Both the position numbers and the translations under genes were made by a program. DNA of 37,387 nt from Bacteroidia bacterium (GTDB lineage: Bacteria; Bacteroidota; Bacteroidia; SpSt-205). Of this stretch, positions 2,170-15,690 are shown piece by piece. The DNA lies in contig JANWXY010000092.1 of assembly GCA_025057135.1 (NCBI GenBank), positions 1 to 37,387 on the forward strand, written 5' to 3'. Numbering within the stretch: the first letter of the stretch is position 1; each line of letters opens with the position of its first letter. The notes beneath the pieces are model-generated. The model ran no database searches. It was not told where the DNA came from and was given only the letters and a program-made list of their open reading frames with translations.

Positions 2170-2742
2170 TTAATCTTCCGTGTCATCCTCATCCTCCTCA
2201 TCATCCTCCTCCCAGTCATCCTCTTCCCAGTCTTCATCTTCCCATTCTTCATCTTCCCAGTCCTCGTCGTCCTCCCACTCTTCGTCTTCCCAATCTTCAT
2301 CTTCCCAGTCTTCGGTTTCTTCATCTTCCCACTCTTCCTCTTCTTCCCACTCTTCTTCTTCCTCTTCTGCTTCTTCGGCTTTCTTTGACAACAGGGCTGT
2401 TTGCTGATGCATGTACTTCAAGGCATCTTCTATGTTCGTCATAAGCGTGAAGATTTCGTTCAGTTTAGAGAGAGAAAAGACGGATTGCAGGGCGGGTGTA
2501 GGAGCTACGACAGCGAGCGACCTACCTGCCTGCAGCAGCATCCGCCGCAAAAGTAAAAGAGCGCTAAGCACTGAGCTATCTAAGGTCTGGACTGCGCTTA
2601 GGTCTATAATCACTCCGTCTGTGGAGCTATGAGCGAGAACAGTGAGCTGAGACTTGAGATCGGGAGTAAGTGCAGCATTTAGGCGCTCTTCCATGGGGCG
2701 AAAGATGACGGTTTCACCGACTGTTTCCACTTGATATTTCAT
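2170..2742 (-). CDS. STAS-domain (anti-sigma-factor-antagonist-like) protein with acidic Trp-repeat tail
   Basis: Residues 1-110 form a STAS domain of the SpoIIAA/RsbV type, including VIIDLSAVQTLDSSVLSALL. Ser56 in LDSS aligns with the Ser phosphorylated by partner-switch kinases in SpoIIAA. Residues 121-190 are almost entirely Glu, Asp and Trp. Trp occurs at 132, 138, 146, 151, 156, 162, 167, 172 and 177, mostly every five residues. The tail is probably disordered and strongly negative, and I know of no function for it. The start overlaps the MBL gene stop (ATGA). A PP2C phosphatase and HATPase-like kinases lie in the same run of genes, so this protein may be another substrate of that switch; that is inference. 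Confidence 0.88.
   Translation of the reverse strand: MKYQVETVGETVIFRPMEERLNAALTPDLKSQLTVLAHSSTDGVIIDLSAVQTLDSSVLSALLLLRRMLLQAGRSLAVVAPTPALQSVFSLSKLNEIFTLMTNIEDALKYMHQQTALLSKKAEEAEEEEEEWEEEEEWEDEETEDWEDEDWEDEEWEDDEDWEDEEWEDEDWEEDDWEEDDEEDEDDTED
2212..2349 (-). repeat. Degenerate 15-base tandem repeat encoding W-(E/D)4 pentapeptides
   Basis: This lies inside the STAS gene tail. On the plus strand the recurrent unit is close to TCTTCATCTTCCCAG, one Trp plus four acidic residues per 15 bases. Nine Trp codons (CCA on the plus strand) mark the units from 2347-2349 down to 2212-2214. Copies differ in the third base and in Glu/Asp choice, so the array is old or kept for protein sequence rather than freshly expanded. 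Confidence 0.85.
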
Positions 2743-4836: not shown

Positions 4837-5304
4837 CTATTTACCTTTCAAAGCCTCCATAAGTTCTACCGCCCGGACAGGGTCAAAAATCAAGTAATAT
4901 AACATGAATAGAACAATAACTGTAAGGACCGCGACCATCACAACCAGAGCTATTTGAATGCGTCCGACCCGTTTATCTATTACGTTCTGCTCTTCGGACA
5001 GCCTCTGATAGTTATGGATGATGGCTTTTTGTGTCTTTTTTGCTTCTTCTTCTTTCTCACGCAGGAGCTGGTTTTGTCTCTCGAGCTCTGCATTCATCTC
5101 ATCCAGTCGCCGTTGATTTCGGTCTGCTATTCGGGTGAGAGTTCGGGCTTCGCCGAGGAGGCGCTCGTACTCCTCTACCATCCGCTTATAGCTCTGCTGC
5201 CATTCTGCATCCGTCATGTCTACACGCGCCAAAGTGAGGCGAGCTTCCTGCAGGAGCTGCAGCTCCTCTGCAAAGAGATTTTTATTACTCCCTACTGTGC
5301 TCAT
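4837..5304 (-). CDS. Coiled-coil, C-terminally membrane-anchored protein (paralogue 1)
   Basis: A 155-residue protein of no family I can name. Residues 10-60 are helical and contain FAEELQLLQEAR, DAEWQQSY and a YERLL...LTRIADRNQRRLDEM run. A charged coiled coil occupies about 45-112. One membrane segment (about 116-140) is followed by only about 15 residues, so it is tail-anchored with the coiled coil in the cytoplasm. The N-terminal half is clearly homologous to the next gene upstream, so the two arose by tandem duplication. The linker resembles the helix before output domains in some SpoIIE phosphatases and cyclases. I chose ATG 5304; an in-frame TTG at 5313 belongs to the promoter box TACCTTTG. 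The location beside SiaB/SiaC suggests a membrane scaffold or signal input (inference). Confidence 0.8.
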   Translation of the reverse strand: MSTVGSNKNLFAEELQLLQEARLTLARVDMTDAEWQQSYKRMVEEYERLLGEARTLTRIADRNQRRLDEMNAELERQNQLLREKEEEAKKTQKAIIHNYQRLSEEQNVIDKRVGRIQIALVVMVAVLTVIVLFMLYYLIFDPVRAVELMEALKGK

Positions 5305-5310
5305 ACTAAG

Positions 5311-5318
5311 CAAAGGTA
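5311..5318 (-). promoter_or_regulatory. Bacteroidota -7 promoter box TACCTTTG
   Basis: Perfect TAnnTTTG on the minus strand, six bases before ATG 5304, in the 28-base gap between the two coiled-coil genes. Its last three bases are an in-frame TTG, which can pass for an upstream start codon. Confidence 0.6.
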
Positions 5319-5332
5319 CGACCAGAGCTGCA

Positions 5333-5788
5333 TCATTGAAGACCTCGGACTTTTTTTACAAACTGTATCATAGTATCCGTATCTATAAAGATGTAGTATG
5401 AAACAAACGCTACTATCACTAAAAGCACTGCGAAGAGCACGATGAGCATCATCCATGTGCGTCCCATCTGGTCGTACAGCGTGTCACGCTCCTTGACTTT
5501 TTTATGAATTTCTTTTTGCTGGTGTTCTATTTGGCGTTCTAAGCCTTCTACCTCATGGCTAAGCGCTTTTCTTTGGAGTTCAAGTTGCGCCCGAGCCTTC
5601 TCAAGCTTCGATTCAAGTTGGTCGGCTTGATGGGTAAGGACTTGGACGACCTTGAGAAGGCTTTCGTAGTTTTCCACAATCTTCAAATAAGCATCGCGCC
5701 ATTCTTGGGAAGTTATGCCGCCGCGCTCAGCTTTGGCGCGTGCCTCTTGTAGAAAAGCAGTTTCTTCTGGAAAGTACTGATCTTTCAT
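5333..5788 (-). CDS. Coiled-coil, C-terminally membrane-anchored protein (paralogue 2)
   Basis: A 151-residue protein with the same plan as its downstream paralogue. An N-terminal helix contains FPEETAFLQEAR and SQEWRDAY. Then come VENYESLL and LTHQADQLESKLEKA, a long coiled coil (about 40-108) and one membrane segment (about 111-134) with about 17 residues after it. Shared positions between the two include EE, LQEAR, EW, VE.YE..LL, LT..AD. The coiled coil itself has diverged, which would let the two form a heteromer or bind different partners. The ATG at 5788 overlaps the SiaC stop (ATGA), which suggests coupled translation with SiaC and a role in the same switch. Function unknown. Confidence 0.82.
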   Translation of the reverse strand: MKDQYFPEETAFLQEARAKAERGGITSQEWRDAYLKIVENYESLLKVVQVLTHQADQLESKLEKARAQLELQRKALSHEVEGLERQIEHQQKEIHKKVKERDTLYDQMGRTWMMLIVLFAVLLVIVAFVSYYIFIDTDTMIQFVKKVRGLQ

Positions 5789-6159
5789 ACAGGCACTAGC
5801 TCAAAAGGCACATCTAACAGGGCTTGATAATCCTGTCCTGTTTCTGCCATATCTTCATCGTCAGAATCATAATGCCATCGTATGGATACCTTATGACCGC
5901 TTTTGTGCATCCGCTCTAACTTCCTAAATATGTCTAACAGACACTTGGAGGAGCTGGTATTGAAGTATTCTAACTGAAACTTGAAGGTGGTCTCTGGCAG
6001 TGGGGATTTGCCGTATTCTTCTATCCAGTCCAAAACCTTTCTGTAGAAGCCAATGGCATCCTCGGGAATACTTCTGCCAGTTATTTCAAATATCCCCAAA
6101 TCAGCGTTCAGGATGACCTTGGGGGTTTTTGAGGTAGGTTCTATAACAAGGTTTCGCAT
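5785..6159 (-). CDS. siaC: SiaC family regulatory phosphoprotein (DUF1987), copy 1
   Basis: A 124-residue protein matching the SiaC/DUF1987 family along its whole length. It has IEPTSKTPKV, ITGRSIPEDAIGFY, YFNTSSSK (residues 65-72) and the acidic DSDDEDMAETGQDYQALL near the C-terminus. In Pseudomonas SiaC, Thr68 is phosphorylated by SiaB and dephosphorylated by the PP2C phosphatase SiaA, and the unphosphorylated form binds a diguanylate cyclase. Thr68 is present here at the same number. No GGDEF gene is visible in the window, so the effector is unknown. The stop overlaps the coiled-coil gene start by four bases. A perfect TAACTTTG box lies eight bases before the ATG. Confidence 0.93.
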   Translation of the reverse strand: MRNLVIEPTSKTPKVILNADLGIFEITGRSIPEDAIGFYRKVLDWIEEYGKSPLPETTFKFQLEYFNTSSSKCLLDIFRKLERMHKSGHKVSIRWHYDSDDEDMAETGQDYQALLDVPFELVPV

Positions 6160-6176: not shown

Positions 6177-6740
6177 TTACTTCTCAGGTATGCGCGACAC
6201 ACGGGCTTCCAAGCTGAAAAATGAATACTTGTCATTGACGGGGTGAAAGTCATATCCCAGACGCTGTCCCGACTTGCGAGCTATGTCTATCATACCTAAA
6301 CCAGCCGTTCCCTTTTCGCTAAACCCCGTTCCTGTTAGAATCTCTTGATACAGCTGCTTGAGCTCTTCCTTGGATGCTCTATTGATTCTATCCAAGCGCG
6401 CTTTGACTTCTGGAATGCGATCATTCATCACATGATTGCCTGTGATGATATAGTAATCCTTTTCCTCGCGTCCGATCATGAGGAGGGCTGTTTTGTCTCG
6501 GACGGGATTGGAGGGGTCAGTGGGGGGTAGGGCGTCTAAATGATGGTATACGTTCTGGAGACATTCTACCATCACGTTGAATACGCGTTTCTTCACTTTA
6601 CGGTCTTCTCCCTCGCCTTCCAGCTTGTTTTCTACCATTTGGAGAATAGATGATACTAAGTCAGCTGTAACCTCACCTTGATACACAAAGATGATGTTAT
6701 TCAGCTGCATATTCTTGTAGTAGCTATAAGTCATGCTCAT
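6177..6740 (-). CDS. siaB: SiaB family protein kinase (DUF6272), catalytically intact copy
   Basis: A 187-residue SiaB-type kinase with a GHKL ATPase-like fold, expected to phosphorylate SiaC on Thr68. The N-box is FNVMVECLQNVYHH with Glu59 and Asn63 in the E-x3-N position. The G-box is GTAGLGMIDIARKSG (residues 144-158) with Gly147 and Gly149 present. The C-terminal YSFFSLEARV strand is shared with the other copy. ATG 6740 is used here; a second ATG at 6734 is equally possible. Five bases separate it from the upstream SiaC gene and 17 from the downstream one. No TAnnTTTG box precedes it, so it depends on upstream transcription. Confidence 0.92.
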   Translation of the reverse strand: MSMTYSYYKNMQLNNIIFVYQGEVTADLVSSILQMVENKLEGEGEDRKVKKRVFNVMVECLQNVYHHLDALPPTDPSNPVRDKTALLMIGREEKDYYIITGNHVMNDRIPEVKARLDRINRASKEELKQLYQEILTGTGFSEKGTAGLGMIDIARKSGQRLGYDFHPVNDKYSFFSLEARVSRIPEK

Positions 6741-6745
6741 AGGCT

Positions 6746-7129
6746 TCAGGATTGAACTTTTACTGAAAGTTCTATGGGAAGGTTCAGTAGAGCTTGATAA
6801 TCTTGACCCGTTTCTTCCATATCCTCATCGTCCTCATCGTAGTACCATGTAACGCGCACCTCATACCCCGCATTGTGTATGGCCTCTAAGCGCTTCAGCA
6901 CTTCTAAGATGTTTTTAGAGCTGCTGGTATTGAAATATTCCAAGTCAAAACGGACATGCGTAACGGGGAGGGGTTGCTTGGAATAGCCATCAAGCCAGTC
7001 AAAAATTGGAGTGTAAAAGCCTACCGAGTCCTCCGGTATACTTCGCCCTGAGAACTCAAAAATTCCATTCTCCGGGTCCAAGATAACCCTCGGAGTTTTA
7101 TGGGTAGACTCTATGCGTAAGGCTTCCAT
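6746..7129 (-). CDS. siaC: SiaC family regulatory phosphoprotein (DUF1987), copy 2
   Basis: A 127-residue SiaC paralogue. It has IESTHKTPRV, FSGRSIPEDSVGFYTPIFDWL, YFNTSSSK (residues 65-72, Thr68 retained) and EDDEDMEETGQDYQALL. It keeps every family hallmark, so unlike its SiaB neighbour it is not degenerate. The two SiaC copies are clearly similar but differ across the helices that contact partners, for example WIEEYGKSPLPET versus WLDGYSKQPLPVT, so they may have separate effectors. It is separated by six bases from the degenerate SiaB upstream and five from the intact SiaB downstream. Confidence 0.92.
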   Translation of the reverse strand: MEALRIESTHKTPRVILDPENGIFEFSGRSIPEDSVGFYTPIFDWLDGYSKQPLPVTHVRFDLEYFNTSSSKNILEVLKRLEAIHNAGYEVRVTWYYDEDDEDMEETGQDYQALLNLPIELSVKVQS

Positions 7130-7135
7130 ACGGCA

Positions 7136-7708
7136 TTATGATTTAGACTTTTTTATGCGCGCTTCCAGAGAGAAAAACGAATCGGTGTCATCCAGGTACT
7201 CAAAGTAGTACTGAAGAAAGTCGTGGGACTTTCTGGCTAAGTCCAAGATGCTTATGGTAGGAATGCCACCGACTTGGGGGGGCATACCGGTGTTCTTGTT
7301 TTGAAGGAGGTCGTGATAGGCATCCCGAAGTTGCTCATCCTGTAAGCTATTTACCCAATCTATGAAAGATTTTATCATATAGACAGAACTGCTGGATACA
7401 CGGCGCCCTATGCTCACAGAGTATAGATAGGGCAGCTGTCGAACCAATAAAGTGGCATTCCCACGGTTCTGGTCCTCTCCGAGAGTGAAAGATTCCACCA
7501 TGATATTGAATAGCTTTTTGCTTACTCGGCGTTCCTCTTTAGTATCTTCTAACCGATACTCGACGAGATTCAAAACGTCTACCATGAAATCAGTCGTGAT
7601 AGGACCATTGTACATAAAGACAATGTTATTGTCCAGCATATTCCGATACAGGGGATATGCGTAGCTTAGCGCAGGCTCGTGTAAGAGCTCAGAATCTACG
7701 GCAATCAT
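7136..7708 (-). CDS. SiaB family protein with degenerate ATP-binding site (predicted pseudokinase)
   Basis: A 190-residue paralogue of the SiaB at 6177-6740. Both ends align well: NNIVFMYNGPITTDF at the start and DSFFSLEARI at the end. The catalytic motifs have decayed. Numbered from the upstream GTG 7714, the N-box reads FNIMVESFTLGEDQ, keeping Glu74 but with Leu78 where the intact copy has Asn63. The G-box GTAGLG is replaced by GIPTIS. About nine residues are also missing after the N-box. ATP and magnesium binding therefore look unlikely, while the fold should persist. I use ATG 7708, eight bases after a TATCTTTG box; GTG 7714 lies between box and ATG. It may bind SiaC as an antagonist or scaffold (inference). 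Confidence 0.85.
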   Translation of the reverse strand: MIAVDSELLHEPALSYAYPLYRNMLDNNIVFMYNGPITTDFMVDVLNLVEYRLEDTKEERRVSKKLFNIMVESFTLGEDQNRGNATLLVRQLPYLYSVSIGRRVSSSSVYMIKSFIDWVNSLQDEQLRDAYHDLLQNKNTGMPPQVGGIPTISILDLARKSHDFLQYYFEYLDDTDSFFSLEARIKKSKS

Positions 7709-7716
7709 ACCCACTA

Positions 7717-7732: not shown

Positions 7733-10474
7733 TCATAAACGCAAACCTACAACGGTGATATCGTCTGTCGGGGAGTTTTCCCCCATCCATCCACTTAGCT
7801 CTTCTAAGAGTTTGGTATGCTGTTCGCGCATAGGTAAGTGGGCCCATGTGGCGATAAACTCGCGGAAGCGACGATGTGAATATCGGCGTTGTCCGGTGGT
7901 ATCAAACTGGTCTATGTACCCATCAGTGTAGAGATACAATAAATCACCGCTTTGATAGGAGAAGGTATGCGTGGTGAAGTTCTTGAGCTTGTCCAGCCAG
8001 AGGGCGCCTCCGAGACCGGTAGGGGCTCCTGAGAGGAGATTCCAGCGCCCCTGTTGGCATACGAAAAGGGGGCGATGCGCTCCTGCGAATCGGACGATTC
8101 GCCGCTCAGGGTCTATGCTGCAAATAACGAGGTCCATGCCATCCTGCATAGCTTCTTGTTGGCTTGAGAGGAGCTGACGGAGCCGCGCGTCCATGTAGTA
8201 TAGAATTTCTGCAGGGTCCGTGATTCCCCTTTCTCTAATAGCTGATTCTATGAGAGTATAGCCTAAAAATGTCATAAAAGCCCCAGGGACGCCATGTCCT
8301 GTACAATCCACCACAGCGACTATGCGTTGCCCATGGGCTTCCCCGCACCAGTAAAAGTCTCCACCTACAACATCCCGCAGCCAGTGCAGAACAAAGCTAT
8401 CGGGGAAAATAGCTCGCAGTCCCTCCTCTCCGGGTAGGAGAGCGCCCTGGATGCGGCGAGCATAGGTGATGCTTTCCATGATATCCCGATTTTTTTCCTC
8501 CAACTCTTGCTTTTGGACCTCCAAAGTCTGGCGGGCTTGCTCTAAGCGAAGATTCTGATGGTGGAGCTGCTCCTGTACCTGCCGTAGCTCAGTGATATCC
8601 TGCAAAAGGATGACCATCGTCTCCACTTCCCCATCAGGGCCTACCTCGGGGATGCCGCGAACAGCCATTTTTCGCATGCCATAGACTGAGGGAAAATCTA
8701 TCTCCGCAGACTGAATACTCAATGTGCTGAATAGCTTATCAATAAAAACCGACCAAAAGCGAACCTCATCCAGGGAAAACCCAACCGAATAGATGGTATT
8801 TCTGATGTAGTGAGCAGGAGAGTATCCCGTGTACTTCTCTATCGTGGGATTTACATACAGAAAATGTCCCTCTCTGTCTGTGCGAAAGATAATGTCGGGG
8901 GAGTTTTCTACCAGAGACTGAAACTTTAGACGGGTACGATACTGCTTTTCGTACTCTATTTCCTCCGTAACATCTCGCAAGATCAGCAATACGGCTTCTA
9001 TTCCAGGATGAGATAAATAGTTGCGTCCCGTGGCTTCTAACCAGAGTAAGCGTCCATCTTTATGATGGTAGCGGAAACGAAGGGTTTGAGGTTGTCCATT
9101 AGAGGTGTGAGTGGAAAGAAGGGACTGGAAATACTGGCGGACCGGCTCAGCATCCATGCGTTCAACGGGGCGGAAAAAGACTTGCAGCTCCTCTTCGGAA
9201 TACCCTAAGAGGCGTCGTGTGGCTGGACTCAGGTACCGGGGACGACCTGTGGAGTCAAAAAATACAATCGCTTCCTGGAGATGTCCCACGATCGCTTCCC
9301 AGCGGCTGCGGAGGGATACGAGCTGCTTCTCTAAGTGCTGATAGTTCGCCTGGGTGTCTGAGGCTCGCTGTTCTATGAGTTCAAGTGTATATCGCAGGTC
9401 CTGATTGAGCTTCTGGTAATAGGCAGACTGATTTTCAAGGCGTTCAATTTGAGCTTTCAAAGCGGCTCTTTCCGAGGCGAGGGATGATTCGCGTTCCGCT
9501 TCTTCTCTGAGAAAATATCCGACGGCAAAAAATGGGGTGATCGCTTCTGCGAGCGTCTGCTGTTCGGCATCCCATTCGGTGAAGCTCGCTACATCCCACA
9601 CCCCCCGAATACTATCAGCAGCGATGACTGGCAATACAGCGACGGCTTGAGGGGGGGCTTTTCCTAAGCCTGAAAGCGCCTGCATGTACCCCTGAGGAAG
9701 CGAAGGTAGCCATAGAGGGCGCCCCTCCCGAGCGACTTGCCCAATCCACCCTTCACCGAGGAGAAATTTTTCAGGGGCATCCAGGGGATAGGCGTAACTA
9801 TAGAGCCGTCGTAGATACTCTCCTTCTACCTTGTAAAAAGCTCCCATCGCTGCGCCTATGGTTTCTATGAATAGGGGCCCAGCTTTGGCTAAATACCCTT
9901 CTACGGAGAGGCTCTGCTGTCCGAGGCGGAGAAACGTCTGACCGCTATTCAGGATTTTGGTGCGTATTTTTTCTGTAAAATGGTTTTGTTGAAACTGTTC
10001 AGCCAATCGGGAGCATAATCCCTGGAGTACAGGCGGCCAATCTGCAAGGGTAGGAGGCACAGTTTGTCGCTCCCGACGCAGGAGCTGATGGATGAAGTTC
10101 AGCGCATCGTTTAGTTCATCTACGATTTGGACTATCTCGCTAGTTTCTGATGGGGATGGGGGAGGGGGCTCGGTCTCTGTGATACCCTCCCACAGTATTC
10201 GCCGGAGACGCTCACGCAAATGAAGGACGGGGCGTGCTAAACGGGCCCACCACCAAAGGGCTAGTCCAATCAAAACGCCCAAGAGTATCAGTAAGACCAC
10301 ATATGCCCATATGTAAAGTGCTCGGTCCCAGTTTTCCCAAGCTGCTGAACCGCTCATTAGCGCTGCGTCTCGCTGGGTGATAATCCAGATTCCTCCCAGC
10401 ACTGAACCGCCGACGACAGCTACCAGTATAGCTAACCCAAACCCTAAATAATCCGCGATATTCCAGCGGCGCAT
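7733..10474 (-). CDS. Membrane-bound GAF-PAS-PAS-PP2C (SpoIIE-type) phosphatase, SiaA-like
   Basis: A 913-residue sensor phosphatase. It has two membrane segments (about 10-32 and 53-76) with a short 20-residue outside loop, then a HAMP-like/linker helix to about 135 interrupted by a Pro-rich stretch. A GAF domain (about 190-325), coiled coil (325-390), PAS 1 (395-505), PAS 2 (515-630) and coiled coil (630-668) follow. The C-terminal PP2C/SpoIIE domain (695-913) has complete metal-binding acidic residues: GGDFYW (Asp706), VVDCTGHGVPGA (Asp723), YTDGYID (Asp851) and TDDITVV (Asp904/905). By position and family it should dephosphorylate the adjacent SiaC proteins, as SiaA does. The start shares one base with the PEBP stop. 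The GAF and PAS domains suggest input from small ligands or redox state; no ligand can be assigned. Confidence 0.93.
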   Translation of the reverse strand: MRRWNIADYLGFGLAILVAVVGGSVLGGIWIITQRDAALMSGSAAWENWDRALYIWAYVVLLILLGVLIGLALWWWARLARPVLHLRERLRRILWEGITETEPPPPSPSETSEIVQIVDELNDALNFIHQLLRRERQTVPPTLADWPPVLQGLCSRLAEQFQQNHFTEKIRTKILNSGQTFLRLGQQSLSVEGYLAKAGPLFIETIGAAMGAFYKVEGEYLRRLYSYAYPLDAPEKFLLGEGWIGQVAREGRPLWLPSLPQGYMQALSGLGKAPPQAVAVLPVIAADSIRGVWDVASFTEWDAEQQTLAEAITPFFAVGYFLREEAERESSLASERAALKAQIERLENQSAYYQKLNQDLRYTLELIEQRASDTQANYQHLEKQLVSLRSRWEAIVGHLQEAIVFFDSTGRPRYLSPATRRLLGYSEEELQVFFRPVERMDAEPVRQYFQSLLSTHTSNGQPQTLRFRYHHKDGRLLWLEATGRNYLSHPGIEAVLLILRDVTEEIEYEKQYRTRLKFQSLVENSPDIIFRTDREGHFLYVNPTIEKYTGYSPAHYIRNTIYSVGFSLDEVRFWSVFIDKLFSTLSIQSAEIDFPSVYGMRKMAVRGIPEVGPDGEVETMVILLQDITELRQVQEQLHHQNLRLEQARQTLEVQKQELEEKNRDIMESITYARRIQGALLPGEEGLRAIFPDSFVLHWLRDVVGGDFYWCGEAHGQRIVAVVDCTGHGVPGAFMTFLGYTLIESAIRERGITDPAEILYYMDARLRQLLSSQQEAMQDGMDLVICSIDPERRIVRFAGAHRPLFVCQQGRWNLLSGAPTGLGGALWLDKLKNFTTHTFSYQSGDLLYLYTDGYIDQFDTTGQRRYSHRRFREFIATWAHLPMREQHTKLLEELSGWMGENSPTDDITVVGLRL

Positions 10475-10947
10475 CAGCGCTTCTGTCGCTTGTAAGTTAC
10501 ATAGGTTTGACCCTGCGCAAGGATTTTACCTGTCATGGCTGCGCGTAGTTTTTCCCATGTAACTGTACCTGAAAGAGAAAGCGGCTTAGCCAGGGCATAG
10601 ACTTCGGCAATGTACCGATGAGCCTCATCCTTTTTAGGAGGACAGGGGCCGCCGTATCCTATTTGACCGAAATCATTATATCCTTGGGAAAGGTTCTGAG
10701 ATTGGGCGGTTACTTGGGTCTCTCTGAGATTATAGACTATCCAGTGGATAAAAGTATCACCTGGTGCGTCAGGGTCATATAGGCGCAGGACATAGACCTG
10801 TGATGGTGCGGGTGCGCCTCCCCACTGAATAGTGGGAGGGATATTAGCCCCATCACAGGTATGTTCTACACCTATCGGACTCCCGGGCGGGAGGTCGCCG
10901 ATTTTCACCCACATCTGCAACCACCACATCAGCCCTAGAAGGCTCAT
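10474..10947 (-). CDS. YbhB/YbcL family (phosphatidylethanolamine-binding protein-like) protein
   Basis: A 157-residue PEBP-fold protein. Family motifs are CDGANIPPTIQW, LYDPDAPGDTFIHWIVYN (the DPDAP and HW ligand-site residues) and GYGGPCPP. The N-terminus has only a short hydrophobic stretch (LLGLMWWLQMWV), which could be a weak signal sequence or the first strand. Bacterial YbhB/YbcL proteins have no settled biochemical role; eukaryotic relatives regulate kinases. It lies between CheB (four-base gap) and the phosphatase (one-base overlap). A TAACTTTG box lies seven bases before the ATG. Any role in the kinase/phosphatase system is speculative. Confidence 0.9.
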   Translation of the reverse strand: MSLLGLMWWLQMWVKIGDLPPGSPIGVEHTCDGANIPPTIQWGGAPAPSQVYVLRLYDPDAPGDTFIHWIVYNLRETQVTAQSQNLSQGYNDFGQIGYGGPCPPKKDEAHRYIAEVYALAKPLSLSGTVTWEKLRAAMTGKILAQGQTYVTYKRQKR

Positions 10948-10951
10948 ACTT

Positions 10952-11533
10952 TCACAAAGTTATAGCTTGGATGCACACTTGTACGAAATCAGCGGCTTTG
11001 AATCGTGCGTTTGGCTCAAATAAAAGGAGGGCAGACTCGGGCATGGTCCGAATATCAGCATCTGTGGGCTCTTGGACAGCTGTGAAGTATCCCGCGCGAT
11101 GCATGAGATACATGCCGCGTGCTCCATCTTTATTAGCCCCAGAGAAAAGCGCCGCGGCTGCCCGTTTCCATCGGGCTTGGACTACCGATTCTAATAGAAC
11201 ATCAATGCTCGGCCTAGAAAAATGTACAGGCTCCTCCACCGATAGGCTAAAATAGCCTCCCGCCTCTACAAGTAAGTGGTAGTCTGCAGGGGCTATATAC
11301 ACATAACCGCCTTGGATTTGCGTTTTGTCATCTGGTTCGCAAACCTTCCAATCGTGGAGATGGCCTATAGCTTCCGCCATGCCTACTCTGGGGTTGCGCA
11401 TTCGGTGGAGGCATAAAACTATAGCTGTCTGAGGATAGTAAGGCATGTGATGTAGGAAGCTTCGGATGGGATTGAAGCTGCCAGCCGAACCGCCGATAAG
11501 CCACAGAAAAACTTCCCGCTTTTCCACCATCAT
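10952..11533 (-). CDS. CheB-type methylesterase domain, stand-alone
   Basis: A 193-residue protein consisting only of a CheB C-terminal methylesterase/glutamine deamidase domain, with no receiver domain. The catalytic triad is present: Ser16 (GGSAGS), His43 (CLHRM) and Asp136 (SGANKDGARG). GGYVYIAPADYHLLV is also typical of CheB. Normal CheB removes methyl groups from glutamates of chemoreceptors after phosphorylation of its receiver; here that control is absent and no chemoreceptor gene is visible. Two ATGs (11533 and 11530) are possible; both overlap the cheR stop. The adjacent phosphatase or coiled-coil proteins are possible alternative targets, but this is a guess. Confidence 0.9.
   Translation of the reverse strand: MMVEKREVFLWLIGGSAGSFNPIRSFLHHMPYYPQTAIVLCLHRMRNPRVGMAEAIGHLHDWKVCEPDDKTQIQGGYVYIAPADYHLLVEAGGYFSLSVEEPVHFSRPSIDVLLESVVQARWKRAAAALFSGANKDGARGMYLMHRAGYFTAVQEPTDADIRTMPESALLLFEPNARFKAADFVQVCIQAITL
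10955..10962 (-). promoter_or_regulatory. Bacteroidota -7 promoter box TAACTTTG
   Basis: Perfect TAnnTTTG on the minus strand inside the last codons of cheB, seven bases before the PEBP ATG at 10947. It could drive PEBP and the phosphatase separately from cheRB. Confidence 0.55.
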
Positions 11534-12363
11534 CTCTGCTTGCGAAAGATTCGCTCAGTGTCATTCACAGAGACTAATCGCTTGGCTGCTGAGCACCAGA
11601 AAAGGGACTCTTTCGTCCCTACCATTAGTATGCCTCCTGTGACCAAGCTATCAACCAGCTTCGTAACCACTTGATCTTGAAGGGCCGGCGTGAAGTAAAT
11701 AAGTAGATTCCGGCACAGAATCACCTCAAACTCCCCAAATGGATTTTCCGTCACGATATTGTGCCTAAGGAACTTCACATTCTGTAAAAGTTCGGGCCTG
11801 AATACCAGTTGATTATTGCTTTCCGCGGTATATTGGGTCAATGATTTTCCGGGAAAAACGGCTTGAAAGTTCTGCTCATAGAGAGGCTTGAGGCGTATGG
11901 GGTAGCGAGCCTGAGCGGCTTTTTCTATGGATATGTCATCTATATCCGTCGCAAAGATGCGCGCCTTATCATACAGACCGATTTCTTTGAGCAGGATGGC
12001 CATGGAGAGAACTTCCTCACCTGTGGATGCCCCTACGTGCCAAATCCTTATCTCGGGTAGAGTGAAAAGCGGAGGGAGAGCTTGCGTACGAAATGCAATC
12101 CATGCTGAGGGGTCCCGAAACAACTCTGTAGTAGAGACGGTAATCTCATTGATGAAGTAACGAATGTATTCGGGCTGCGTGAGAAGTCTATGATTGAGAA
12201 TAGTAAGCCCTGGGAGACCATATTTTTTTATCACGGACCCAAGACGTCGCTTGAGCGAGGCAGGGGCATAGCCACGAAAATCGTGTCCGTATTGTGTAAG
12301 CATTATCTGCATAAACTGCTCCAACTCTGCATCAGATATTTCAGGCAGGACCTCTATCAGCAC
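11530..12363 (-). CDS. CheR-type protein-glutamate O-methyltransferase
   Basis: A 277-residue CheR with the N-terminal helical domain (RRLGSVIKKYG, residues 39-49) and a SAM-binding domain. STTELFRD (77-84) and HVGASTGEEVLSMA (109-122) match the usual TEFFRD and GCSTGEE motifs, and ILCRNLLIYF supplies the late motif. It transfers methyl groups from SAM to glutamate side chains of receptors. The start is GTG 12363, four bases after the near-consensus box TATCTTTA; no in-frame ATG lies near. It is the first gene of the long minus-strand run and overlaps cheB by four bases. No TPR or receiver fusion is present. Confidence 0.92.
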   Translation of the reverse strand: MLIEVLPEISDAELEQFMQIMLTQYGHDFRGYAPASLKRRLGSVIKKYGLPGLTILNHRLLTQPEYIRYFINEITVSTTELFRDPSAWIAFRTQALPPLFTLPEIRIWHVGASTGEEVLSMAILLKEIGLYDKARIFATDIDDISIEKAAQARYPIRLKPLYEQNFQAVFPGKSLTQYTAESNNQLVFRPELLQNVKFLRHNIVTENPFGEFEVILCRNLLIYFTPALQDQVVTKLVDSLVTGGILMVGTKESLFWCSAAKRLVSVNDTERIFRKQR

Positions 12364-12389: not shown

Positions 12390-12397
12390 TACAAGTG

Positions 12398-13939
12398 ATG
12401 CAGGTTGGTAACTATGTTCTGCAGCAGGTTCTTGGCGAGGGTGGGATGGGGCGCGTTTGGTTGGCACAGCATATTCACCTCGGTACCTCTGCGGTAGTCA
12501 AGTCCTTGCATCCGCAGTATGCCCAGAATGAGCAGCTGCATCAGCGTTTTCTTGCGGAGGCACGCCTATTAGCACAGCTCAGGCACCCGGCGGTGGTTCG
12601 TTTGTACGACTTCACTATTCAGGAGGGCATTCCTTACCTGATTATGGAATATGTCCAGGGGGAAAGCCTGGAAAGTTATATTCAATCTCGTGGTACACTA
12701 TCGCTGCCGGAAATAATAACTATTCTTTCGCCGATCTTTGACGCCCTGAGATACCTTCATGCCCAGCGTGTCATACACCGAGATGTCAAACCATCTAACA
12801 TTCTGGTTCGTCCAGATGGTACGGGAAAGCTCATAGATTTCGGTATAGCCAAAGCTCTGGATGAGGACTTCAAGCTCACGAGGACCGGCACACAAATCGG
12901 TACCGCCCTGTACATGGCTCCTGAGCAGATCAAAGGTGAAGCAGTGTCCCCGCAGACGGATTTATATGCCATAGGACTGGTAATATACGAGTGCTTTTTT
13001 GGGCGTTTTCCATGGGAATGGCAAGGGCTAACTGCATTTCAAATATACCAGCGCCTTCTTACAGAGCCCCCACCGATTCCACAAACTACTCCCCCGGCGG
13101 TACAGGCCTTCTTCAATAAAGCGCTTGCTAAGGAGGTGGCTAATCGCTTTTCCTCCGCAGAAGAAATGCATCAGGCCCTCGTCGCTTTGAATCAGCGAGA
13201 CGGTGTAAAAAACAGTGCTGCTGTAGTCCATAGTAGCTCTGTATCTTCTGATACACAGGACTCCCCTGCCTTACAGAAAGATTTTACTCCTACACCTTCT
13301 CTCTCCTCTGCGTCAGTAGAAGCCTCTATTCCATCCACTGCTAAGCCGACCCGTTCGCCAGTATTTTCCCTGCTCATTCTCGGGGGCGTTCTCTTGGTGG
13401 CTGTTTTAGCTTTCTTCCTTTTCAGATTACTCAACTTCTCTGAGGATGCCGATATTTCCCCAAGGGATAGGATAAAGATTGCATCGGAGGACGATGAACT
13501 GCGAACCTCTAAGCCCGTAGACATTGGTGATAAAGTGCGGAACGACCTGCGTGAATACTTGCGTTCCTACGAGCCATCGGAAACCGTGGAAATCTTATGG
13601 GGCTCTATACCTACATCGCCGATCTATGATTACACGGGGACTTTATCAGTTCCAGTGACTGTGAATTACATAATGATTAGGGAAGATGTCGTGGAATCCT
13701 CCGAAGATTGCTATATCTCAGGGATACCGATAGGACCTCCGCTCGGCACGCAACGCGTATGGACTCACTATCGGGTGCGGTACTTATGTACTACTTCTGA
13801 TTATGCCAAGGTATCCTATGATTACAATCCTGTCTCAGACCACACCAGCTTTTCCATCCAGTTACCGCCTCGACCTGAGGATAACTGCCAAGAAGTAGAT
13901 AGGGAGCGTATTCGGGAAGAAAGAGGAGATTGCGAATGA
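12398..13939 (+). CDS. Membrane Ser/Thr protein kinase (Hanks type), first of pair
   Basis: A 513-residue kinase. The domain (about 5-265) is complete: glycine loop GEGGMGRV (13-20), Lys35 in VVKSL, Glu55, HRD at 127-129 within HRDVKPSNIL, DFG at 147-149 and APE at 174-176. A Ser/Thr/Pro-rich linker (about 270-320), likely disordered, leads to one membrane segment (322-345). About 165 extracytoplasmic residues with four Cys follow, belonging to no domain I recognise and without PASTA repeats. ATG 12398 is chosen over GTG 12395 because it sits eight bases after the -7 box and begins the conserved MQVGNYVL segment. The stop overlaps the second kinase start (ATGA). A PP2C phosphatase is encoded divergently. 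Confidence 0.92.
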   Translation: MQVGNYVLQQVLGEGGMGRVWLAQHIHLGTSAVVKSLHPQYAQNEQLHQRFLAEARLLAQLRHPAVVRLYDFTIQEGIPYLIMEYVQGESLESYIQSRGTLSLPEIITILSPIFDALRYLHAQRVIHRDVKPSNILVRPDGTGKLIDFGIAKALDEDFKLTRTGTQIGTALYMAPEQIKGEAVSPQTDLYAIGLVIYECFFGRFPWEWQGLTAFQIYQRLLTEPPPIPQTTPPAVQAFFNKALAKEVANRFSSAEEMHQALVALNQRDGVKNSAAVVHSSSVSSDTQDSPALQKDFTPTPSLSSASVEASIPSTAKPTRSPVFSLLILGGVLLVAVLAFFLFRLLNFSEDADISPRDRIKIASEDDELRTSKPVDIGDKVRNDLREYLRSYEPSETVEILWGSIPTSPIYDYTGTLSVPVTVNYIMIREDVVESSEDCYISGIPIGPPLGTQRVWTHYRVRYLCTTSDYAKVSYDYNPVSDHTSFSIQLPPRPEDNCQEVDRERIREERGDCE

Positions 13940-15690
13940 CTGTTGGGGAGTATAATATCATTCAGGAGCTTGCTTCTGGCGGAATGGGCAAGGTGTATAT
14001 TGGTCAGCATGTACATTTGGGCGGTTTAGCTGTCATCAAAACCCTCCTGCCCGAATACGCGCAGAACGAAGTTCTCGTCCGGCGTTTCTACACTGAAGCT
14101 CGGATTATGGCAGAGCTGGACCACCCTGCTATTGTAAAGCTGTATGACTTCTCCATACAAGATGGCATGCCCTATCTCGTGATGGAGTACGTTCATGGCA
14201 GGTCTTTGGAGGAAGTTCTGAATGCTCAAAGTGGTAATCCGTTGGGTATAGACTGGGTTATGGCTAACCTCAGCTCTATTTTTGATGCGTTGGGGTATAT
14301 CCATCGGAAAGATATTATCCACCGAGACATCAAGCCCTCAAACATCATAATTCTACCCGAAGGGGGCTCCAAGCTATTAGACTTCGGGATAGCGAAAGCG
14401 ATGGATGCAGATTACAAGCTTACGCAGACTGGCACGCATATAGGGACGGCGCTCTATATGGCACCAGAGCAAGTAGCGGACGGCGCTGTTTCACCCCAGA
14501 CGGACCTATTCGCAATGGGGCTGATAATATATCAGTGTCTTTTCGGGCGATATCCTTGGGCGTGGGAGGGCAAAACGCTTTTTCAGATTTACCAGACTAT
14601 CCTCACCGAAAGGCCACCGATACCAGCCGAAGCACCTGAAATAGTCCATTTTTTCTTTGATAAAGCCCTGGCTAAATCTCCCAAAGAGCGCTTCTCATCA
14701 GCCGAGGCAATGCTGACAGGTCTGCGGGAGATACAGGCTCATTTCACACCTCAGAGGGGGCCGACGCCTCAGGTTGAGGTGAAAGCCTTGTTTGAGGATG
14801 TCCTGACGGACTTCTTTCATCTGCCTGAAGCGGTTAGTTCAGACCAAACCCCCGAAGTTCTCCGTGCGGCGACCCAGAGCTCAGAGAATAGGCATCGAAT
14901 CCCTTTCCCAACTGGTATTCTATCCATAGCAGTTGGCATAGCTGTGGCCTACTTCCTACACTCCCCTCTGGGTATAGTTGGATGGATAAGTTGGACGGGA
15001 CTTATAGGTGGGCTCCTTTATACACTGCTTGGTCAACATGCTGTTTTACGCCCCTTCTCCTACCTATCTGTGGGCGTATTCGGGGGGTTTTTGGCATACT
15101 TTCACCTCTTTGCATTTCCCAAGTTCAAAGCTGCCCACGATGCTCAAATCAACATATATAGTGCCCTTCTCACAGAGACGGAGGGGTATAGGTCGGATTC
15201 GCTTTCGCCCTTAGTGCGTCGTCGATTACGGGTAAAAGGCATAGACCCCCAAGATATCCAAATAGAGATTGAGCCGCTTCCAGAGCCGCCTTCTTTCACT
15301 GATAGAGAGCTGAGTTTGCGAGAAATCGTACGAGTACTGCGAGGTAAAGTGCAGGAGATTTATCCGCTTAGTAAAGAGCTCGTTCTCAACTCCACCATCT
15401 CTTACAAGAAAAATGCAGCTGTGCGCTATTCCCAAGAAGTCAGTTGTACAGCCAGCTGTGGATTTTTCGGCCTAAGCACGTGCTATGGGACTCAGACAGT
15501 CTGGTTTCTCGCTACATGGAAAGAAAGCTGTACTATGCGGGGAAAGCTGGTGATTTCGTATGACTACGACACCAATACGCAAAAACTCAGACGAAGAATA
15601 ACCCCAAGGTTTGATTACAATCCGAAATGTGAGGAGATTCCAGGTACTCGTACGAAGCGAGTAGAATTCCAGGGAGCGTGTTTGTATTGA
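13936..15690 (+). CDS. Membrane Ser/Thr protein kinase (Hanks type), second of pair
   Basis: A 584-residue paralogue of the preceding kinase. The domain spans about 5-265: glycine loop ASGGMGKV with the first glycine replaced by Ala, Lys35 (VIKTL), HRD at 129-131 (HRDIKPSNII), DFG at 149-151 and MAPEQ. Unlike its partner it has three membrane segments (about 325-342, 345-366 and 373-393). The roughly 190-residue C-terminal part is Cys-rich (SCTASCGFFGLSTCYG) and resembles only loosely the end of the first kinase (DYNP, Cys spacing). With three segments the C-terminal part should be extracytoplasmic. ATG 13936 overlaps the first kinase stop; the upstream TTG 13930 is less likely. The kinases share activation-loop and substrate-lobe sequence, so heterodimers are possible. 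Confidence 0.92.
   Translation: MTVGEYNIIQELASGGMGKVYIGQHVHLGGLAVIKTLLPEYAQNEVLVRRFYTEARIMAELDHPAIVKLYDFSIQDGMPYLVMEYVHGRSLEEVLNAQSGNPLGIDWVMANLSSIFDALGYIHRKDIIHRDIKPSNIIILPEGGSKLLDFGIAKAMDADYKLTQTGTHIGTALYMAPEQVADGAVSPQTDLFAMGLIIYQCLFGRYPWAWEGKTLFQIYQTILTERPPIPAEAPEIVHFFFDKALAKSPKERFSSAEAMLTGLREIQAHFTPQRGPTPQVEVKALFEDVLTDFFHLPEAVSSDQTPEVLRAATQSSENRHRIPFPTGILSIAVGIAVAYFLHSPLGIVGWISWTGLIGGLLYTLLGQHAVLRPFSYLSVGVFGGFLAYFHLFAFPKFKAAHDAQINIYSALLTETEGYRSDSLSPLVRRRLRVKGIDPQDIQIEIEPLPEPPSFTDRELSLREIVRVLRGKVQEIYPLSKELVLNSTISYKKNAAVRYSQEVSCTASCGFFGLSTCYGTQTVWFLATWKESCTMRGKLVISYDYDTNTQKLRRRITPRFDYNPKCEEIPGTRTKRVEFQGACLY

Follow-up and report, generated by a model that had tools for sequence, protein, structure and literature searches.

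The window, the whole stretch of 37,387 nucleotides from a Bacteroidia bacterium, carries two adjoining reverse-strand genes at positions 10952–12363. The first (11530–12363) starts with GTG and encodes a 277-residue CheR-type glutamate O-methyltransferase; the second (10952–11533) overlaps it by 4 bases and encodes a 193-residue CheB-type methylesterase. CheR contains the CheR domain (PF01739, 4.4e-36, 124.6 bits against a cut-off of 27) and CheR_N (PF03705, 5.6e-8), together with the SAM motif and catalytic residues of its family. In CheB the sole domain is CheB_methylest (PF01339, 8.9e-36, 123.7 bits against a cut-off of 24); Pfam finds no receiver domain, which sets the protein apart from chemotaxis-type CheB. 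The closest solved structures are 5ftw for CheR (9e-30) and 1chd for CheB (6e-19), and S16, H43 and D136 of CheB align with the residues of the Salmonella CheB structures 1chd and 1a2o that we take to be the Ser-His-Asp catalytic triad. This triad is intact in all 52 sequences that cover these positions (a contig stops within the one other sequence in the set of 53), and R83, E117, D140, R218, N219 and Y223 of CheR are invariant in 51 of 51 sequences, so both enzymes look active as judged from sequence. Coordinates, Pfam and the alignment to 1chd and 1a2o thus agree with the first-pass annotation, which had described a stand-alone CheR and an overlapping, receiver-less CheB with a full triad.

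Downstream on the same strand, a gap of 4 bases separates cheB from a gene for a PEBP/YbhB-family protein (10474–10947; PF01161 3.2e-33, TIGR00481), which shares one base with the gene for a membrane sensor phosphatase of 913 residues (7733–10474; PF07228 1.3e-24). The phosphatase begins with two apparent transmembrane helices, read from the sequence, and continues through a linker, a GAF domain, a coil, two PAS domains and a second coil to the SpoIIE domain; its catalytic half is SiaA-like, residues 631–913 matching NCBIfam SiaA at 8e-59, a score below the family cut-off. It is followed by a SiaB-like protein lacking the N-box Asn and Gly loop (7136–7714; PF19788 9.9e-14), a SiaC with phospho-acceptor Thr68 in the motif FNTS (6746–7129; PF09345 5e-41), a SiaB kinase with intact boxes that scores above the SiaB family cut-off (6177–6740; PF19788 1.5e-41) and a second SiaC, also with Thr at position 68 (5785–6159; PF09345 1.7e-43). 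A SpoIIE phosphatase, a SiaB kinase and SiaC Thr68, the components of a SiaABC partner-switch module, are therefore all present. The last two genes of this block (5333–5788 and 4837–5313) encode tail-anchored coiled-coil paralogues, each with a hydrophobic segment at the C terminus that apparently spans the membrane. The earlier description of phosphatase and Sia genes following CheB is right as to the run itself, but the PEBP gene intervenes before the phosphatase. The short or negative gaps from cheR onward make a single transcript likely.

Looking beyond the window, the genome (2.08 Mb in 94 contigs, completeness 98.1) contains one CheR and one CheB only, by profile search of its contigs. 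The same genome has no match to the MCP signalling domain PF00015 and none to the CheW domain PF01584, which CheA normally carries. MCP, CheA and CheW are likewise absent among the 14 window proteins scanned, as had been noted, and the genome-wide check for chemoreceptors, set beforehand, came out the same way, without a second CheR or CheB. One copy of CheB is found in each of the 13 genomes of the order and MCP in none of them (0/13); on these MCP and CheW searches a hidden chemotaxis system was rejected. Across the class, CheB occurs in 127 of 396 genomes and MCP above cut-off in 15 of 396, and 113 of the 127 CheB-bearing genomes lack an MCP above cut-off. That the CheR/CheB pair is at once real, competent and non-chemotactic is close to certain in our judgement.

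The neighbourhood is conserved among relatives. The order cheR-cheB-PEBP-phosphatase is found in 10 of 11 genomes of the genus (the window, L021, L022 and L024–L030), and in the eleventh (G003) the contig stops inside the PEBP gene; the full block down to both coiled-coil genes is present in all nine genus genomes whose contigs reach it. In L031, from another family of the order, the phosphatase gene lies directly after CheB without PEBP, and in L023 (G002), which belongs to a second genus of the window's own family, CheB is followed by a different gene. For the class, 40 stand-alone CheB loci were sampled (short-ORF places hand-chosen among the matches listed, with loci of the order taken separately), a partner was counted if it lay on the same strand no more than three genes away, and neighbours were recognised with HMMs built from one to seven sequences each, drawn from the window and the sampled loci. 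CheR lies immediately upstream of CheB in 39 of the 40; a GAF-SpoIIE gene is nearby in nine, a multi-receiver histidine kinase in 23, and neither in eight. The nine GAF-SpoIIE loci span six families (three in f16, two in f47, and f34, f63, f74 and f75), and a GAF protein occupies the PEBP position in L034, L041, L042 and L049. Among the eight loci with neither partner, L039 continues from CheR-CheB into SiaB-SiaC-SiaB-SiaC, with no SpoIIE found within the stretch examined, and in L067 CheB sits at a contig end. The adjacency of cheR, cheB and SpoIIE, which the first-pass annotation had suggested checking, hence recurs both in the genus and in the class sample. Sia modules also occur independently of CheR/CheB, since SiaC is found in 193 of 396 class genomes against 127 of 396 for CheB. 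Three loci of family f39 (L033, L044 and L070) carry CheR-CheB-CheR triplets without a recognised partner; the CheR upstream of CheB in L033 gives no CheR_N match.

A tree of CheR and CheB joined (51 rows) contains one branch, with support of 99/100, that parts a phosphatase/Sia side of 25 rows from a kinase side of 26. The former holds 21 rows labelled SpoIIE (including L020 and L023, whose labels are unproven), one Sia and three others, and the latter 23 histidine kinase rows and three others. L033, L044 and L070 fall on the SpoIIE/Sia side despite having no recognised partner. Six label changes are needed when L020 is left out and L023 is counted as other, and five when both are taken as SpoIIE. 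With a length of 1.21, the branch to the window's order is a long one, and we are unsure of the exact place of the order inside the phosphatase/Sia side. As the tree splits by partner kind with only these few changes, the link between CheR/CheB and the phosphatase is old and mostly inherited, and we hold it highly probable that CheR/CheB are functionally tied to the sensor phosphatase.

The two kinds of partner share an architecture. Kinase partners run from a sensor, which is 4HB_MCP or CHASE3 in four of five partners scanned, through GAF, coil and HisKA to receivers, and phosphatase partners from GAF through coil and PAS to SpoIIE, with HAMP in some; common to both is a GAF domain followed by a coil, and the output domain varies. 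Glu pairs are dense in the coils of the kinase partners, and EEMQAT or EEMRAT follows the GAF domain in the phosphatases of L034, L042 and L049; no such motif follows GAF in those of L036, L040, L041, L046, L050 and L051. In two phosphatase-linked clusters a receptor-like protein with no output domain lies directly upstream of CheR, a dCache-HAMP-GAF protein in L041 (9668–11599, reverse strand) and a HAMP-GAF protein in L050 (4951–6552, forward strand). Each closes with a Glu-pair coil that contains EEMQAT or EELKAT. The methylation consensus of E. coli receptors is Glx-Glx-x-x-Ala-Ser/Thr, which the EEMQAT, EELKAT and EEMRAT motifs fit. The common GAF-coil arrangement, the Glu-pair coils and the consensus-like motifs point to the partner coil as the putative substrate, the output domain being incidental. 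A profile of the kinase-partner coil (A2) finds matches in 67 of the 396 class genomes, and 52 of these also have CheB, compared with 127 of 396 overall (Fisher p 3e-17, relatedness ignored); since partners of CheR/CheB were the source of the profile, this association shows the coil occurring with CheR/CheB and not its methylation. Of the 28 coil matches scoring at least 80 bits, 24 lie within 6 kb of a listed CheB; of the remaining four, G298, G258 and G037 have CheB beyond the places listed, and the listed CheB of G181 is on another contig.

Taken together, the intact catalytic residues, the lack of a chemoreceptor, the recurrent gene order and the coherent CheR/CheB lineage form the sequence basis for a proposal towards which we lean, namely that CheR and CheB are dedicated to the sensor phosphatase two genes downstream, which they methylate and demethylate outside chemotaxis. 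The pair would probably represent an adaptation device of the chemotaxis type put to work in another signalling pathway; what we infer is which protein is methylated, at which sites, in which direction this acts and what the output is. CheR would methylate Glu residues on the cytoplasmic signalling coil of the sensor, most likely the post-GAF coil, and CheB would strip the methyl groups. With no receiver domain to restrain CheB, the methylation balance is proposed to follow the conformation of the sensor, and the methylation state would determine the gain at which the SpoIIE phosphatase works or how it adapts. The phosphatase, together with SiaB, may then control phosphorylation of SiaC Thr68, and unphosphorylated SiaC would bind the tail-anchored stalk proteins.

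The proposed methylation region of the window's phosphatase is the coiled coil after GAF (9311–9520, reverse strand; residues 319–388). In nine genus sequences this is the least conserved stretch of the protein, with a mean column conservation of 0.47 against 0.55–0.89 in other regions. Only E324, E325 and E/Q327 (9494–9505) remain E or Q in all genus sequences of the coil, E/Q-only columns are found outside the coils of the genus phosphatases too, and the motif EExxA[ST] is absent from the post-GAF coil of the window. Such poor conservation and so few kept glutamates leave room for a substrate in trans, that is, for CheR/CheB acting on another GAF-coil sensor or on an output-less receptor that cooperates with the phosphatase. 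The output-less proteins with Glu-pair coils beside CheR in L041 and L050 speak for this arrangement, as do the lack of the EExxA[ST] motif in the coil of the window's phosphatase and the 16 SpoIIE-domain matches of the genome, one alone of which lies beside CheR/CheB. The window has no such receptor gene next to the pair, however, a search of the window's genome with the kinase-coil profile gives no match at E 1e-8, and the phosphatase is the conserved partner in cis; we consider a trans substrate a rather unlikely alternative, though one to be taken seriously.

The output side bears on a second alternative. The second SiaB has an N-box Asn and a Gly loop that are missing from the first in the window and in 10 of 10 related loci among the matches listed (L003 duplicating L026, and L006 duplicating L024), and for this reason the product of 7136–7714 is probably a pseudokinase; the first SiaB of L039 and L040 retains the N-box Asn. 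No GGDEF domain is found in the window's genome, which thus lacks a diguanylate cyclase target of the SiaD kind, and SiaC must therefore have another target. According to the available text of PMC8457831, phosphorylation of T68 in P. aeruginosa blocks the binding of SiaC to the SiaD stalk, where the contact residues are R80, I81, S82, D83, R84 and Q86. The sequence LTRIADRNQ in the 4837–5313 product resembles these contacts when compared by residue list rather than by alignment to SiaD, and a weaker stalk-like motif is present in the 5333–5788 product, placed by alignment with its paralogue and itself without a Pfam family above cut-off. The closeness of RIADRNQ to the SiaD contacts suggests a part in the output and not in methylation, so that the tail-anchored pair resemble stalks that bind SiaC more than they do substrates of CheR and are a candidate replacement for SiaD as the target of SiaC. 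PDB sequence searches with the paralogue-alignment profile and with the single protein did not retrieve SiaD, giving unspecific matches, mostly coiled coils, and an identification as SiaD by sequence was rejected. Five SiaC matches alongside the 16 SpoIIE matches in 2.08 Mb indicate that partner switching is expanded in this genome.

The first-pass annotation had offered these Glu-rich proteins as candidate methyl acceptors, while also proposing a search for methyl-Glu in the phosphatase. Its suggestion of a non-chemotaxis role gains support from the lack of MCP and CheW in the genome and from the recurrent adjacency, but its choice of the coiled-coil proteins does not. They are Glu-rich coiled coils that are kept in the genus and also occur in L039 and L040, yet they go undetected in the kinase-linked and the other phosphatase-linked clusters examined; the sister CheR/CheB group goes with GAF-coil-histidine-kinase sensors, no Sia or stalk gene is detected around the kinase-linked pairs, and the SiaC-binding-like motif in one of the proteins gives them another role. 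Methylation of the tail-anchored proteins is accordingly improbable, and the sensor phosphatase is the better target. It is about as improbable, or slightly more so, that CheR/CheB are merely co-transcribed with a signalling operon, by chance or hitch-hiking: SpoIIE genes are common in this genome and the adjacency is broken in L023, but it recurs in nine class loci of six families as well as in the order, and the tree separates the partner kinds. A degenerate chemotaxis system, in which CheR and CheB formerly worked or still work on a chemoreceptor, has in its favour that both are classical chemotaxis families, but it is largely refuted and barely credible given the fully kept catalytic residues, the lack of CheW in the genome and of MCP throughout the order, and the 113 of 127 CheB-bearing class genomes without an MCP above cut-off.

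The proposed device for the sensor phosphatase can be set against several known systems. With chemoreceptor adaptation in E. coli and Salmonella it shares the enzyme families, the catalytic residues and the proposed Glu-bearing coil of a membrane sensor as substrate; it differs in that the genome has no MCP or CheW, the neighbouring sensor is a phosphatase, and CheB has no receiver domain for CheA to phosphorylate. Pathways with alternative cellular functions are chemosensory pathways with chemoreceptors and CheA, whereas the window's genome has neither MCP nor CheW; as described in the available text of PMC3447774, those with CheR-TPR resemble the present case in using CheR beyond flagellar taxis and with diverse outputs. 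The SpoIIE phosphatase, SiaB kinase and SiaC Thr68 recall SiaABCD of P. aeruginosa (PMC8457831, PMC7647112, in the parts available), but the window adds CheR/CheB, doubles SiaB and SiaC with one SiaB probably inactive, and has tail-anchored stalk proteins, in a genome without GGDEF, in the place of SiaD. CheR/CheB beside multi-receiver hybrid histidine kinases are already published (PMC5108060, available text), and the kinase-linked loci found here, with CheR/CheB adjoining a sensor kinase with receivers, look like that kind; the window's output is instead a SpoIIE phosphatase with SiaB/SiaC, and its CheR/CheB belong to a separate lineage. For the phosphatase/Sia-linked form, and for CheB, CheR, SpoIIE and GAF together, no published description was found in the open-licence literature, and subscription papers could contain one.

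A broader reading, to which we give even chances, is that throughout the Bacteroidia CheR and receiver-less CheB adapt non-chemoreceptor sensors built of GAF and a signalling coil, whatever their output, one ancient lineage working with SpoIIE phosphatases and Sia partner switching and the other with multi-receiver histidine kinases. If this is true, reversible glutamate methylation would serve adaptation generally beyond chemotaxis. In bacterial chemotaxis the methylation of receptors is the textbook form of memory, and the same enzymes acting on a partner switch and on kinases would extend adaptation by methylation to these. Culturable Bacteroidia with the same clusters would allow testing, with SiaC phosphorylation as a directly readable output.

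Two further features flank this block. Two PknB-like Ser/Thr kinases (12395–15690, forward strand) diverge from cheR with 31 bases between; they were rejected as members of the unit, since of the loci compared none but the window, L024 and L025 has such kinases next to CheR. A STAS-domain protein (2170–2742, reverse strand) lies within the same-strand run and is kept across the genus loci.
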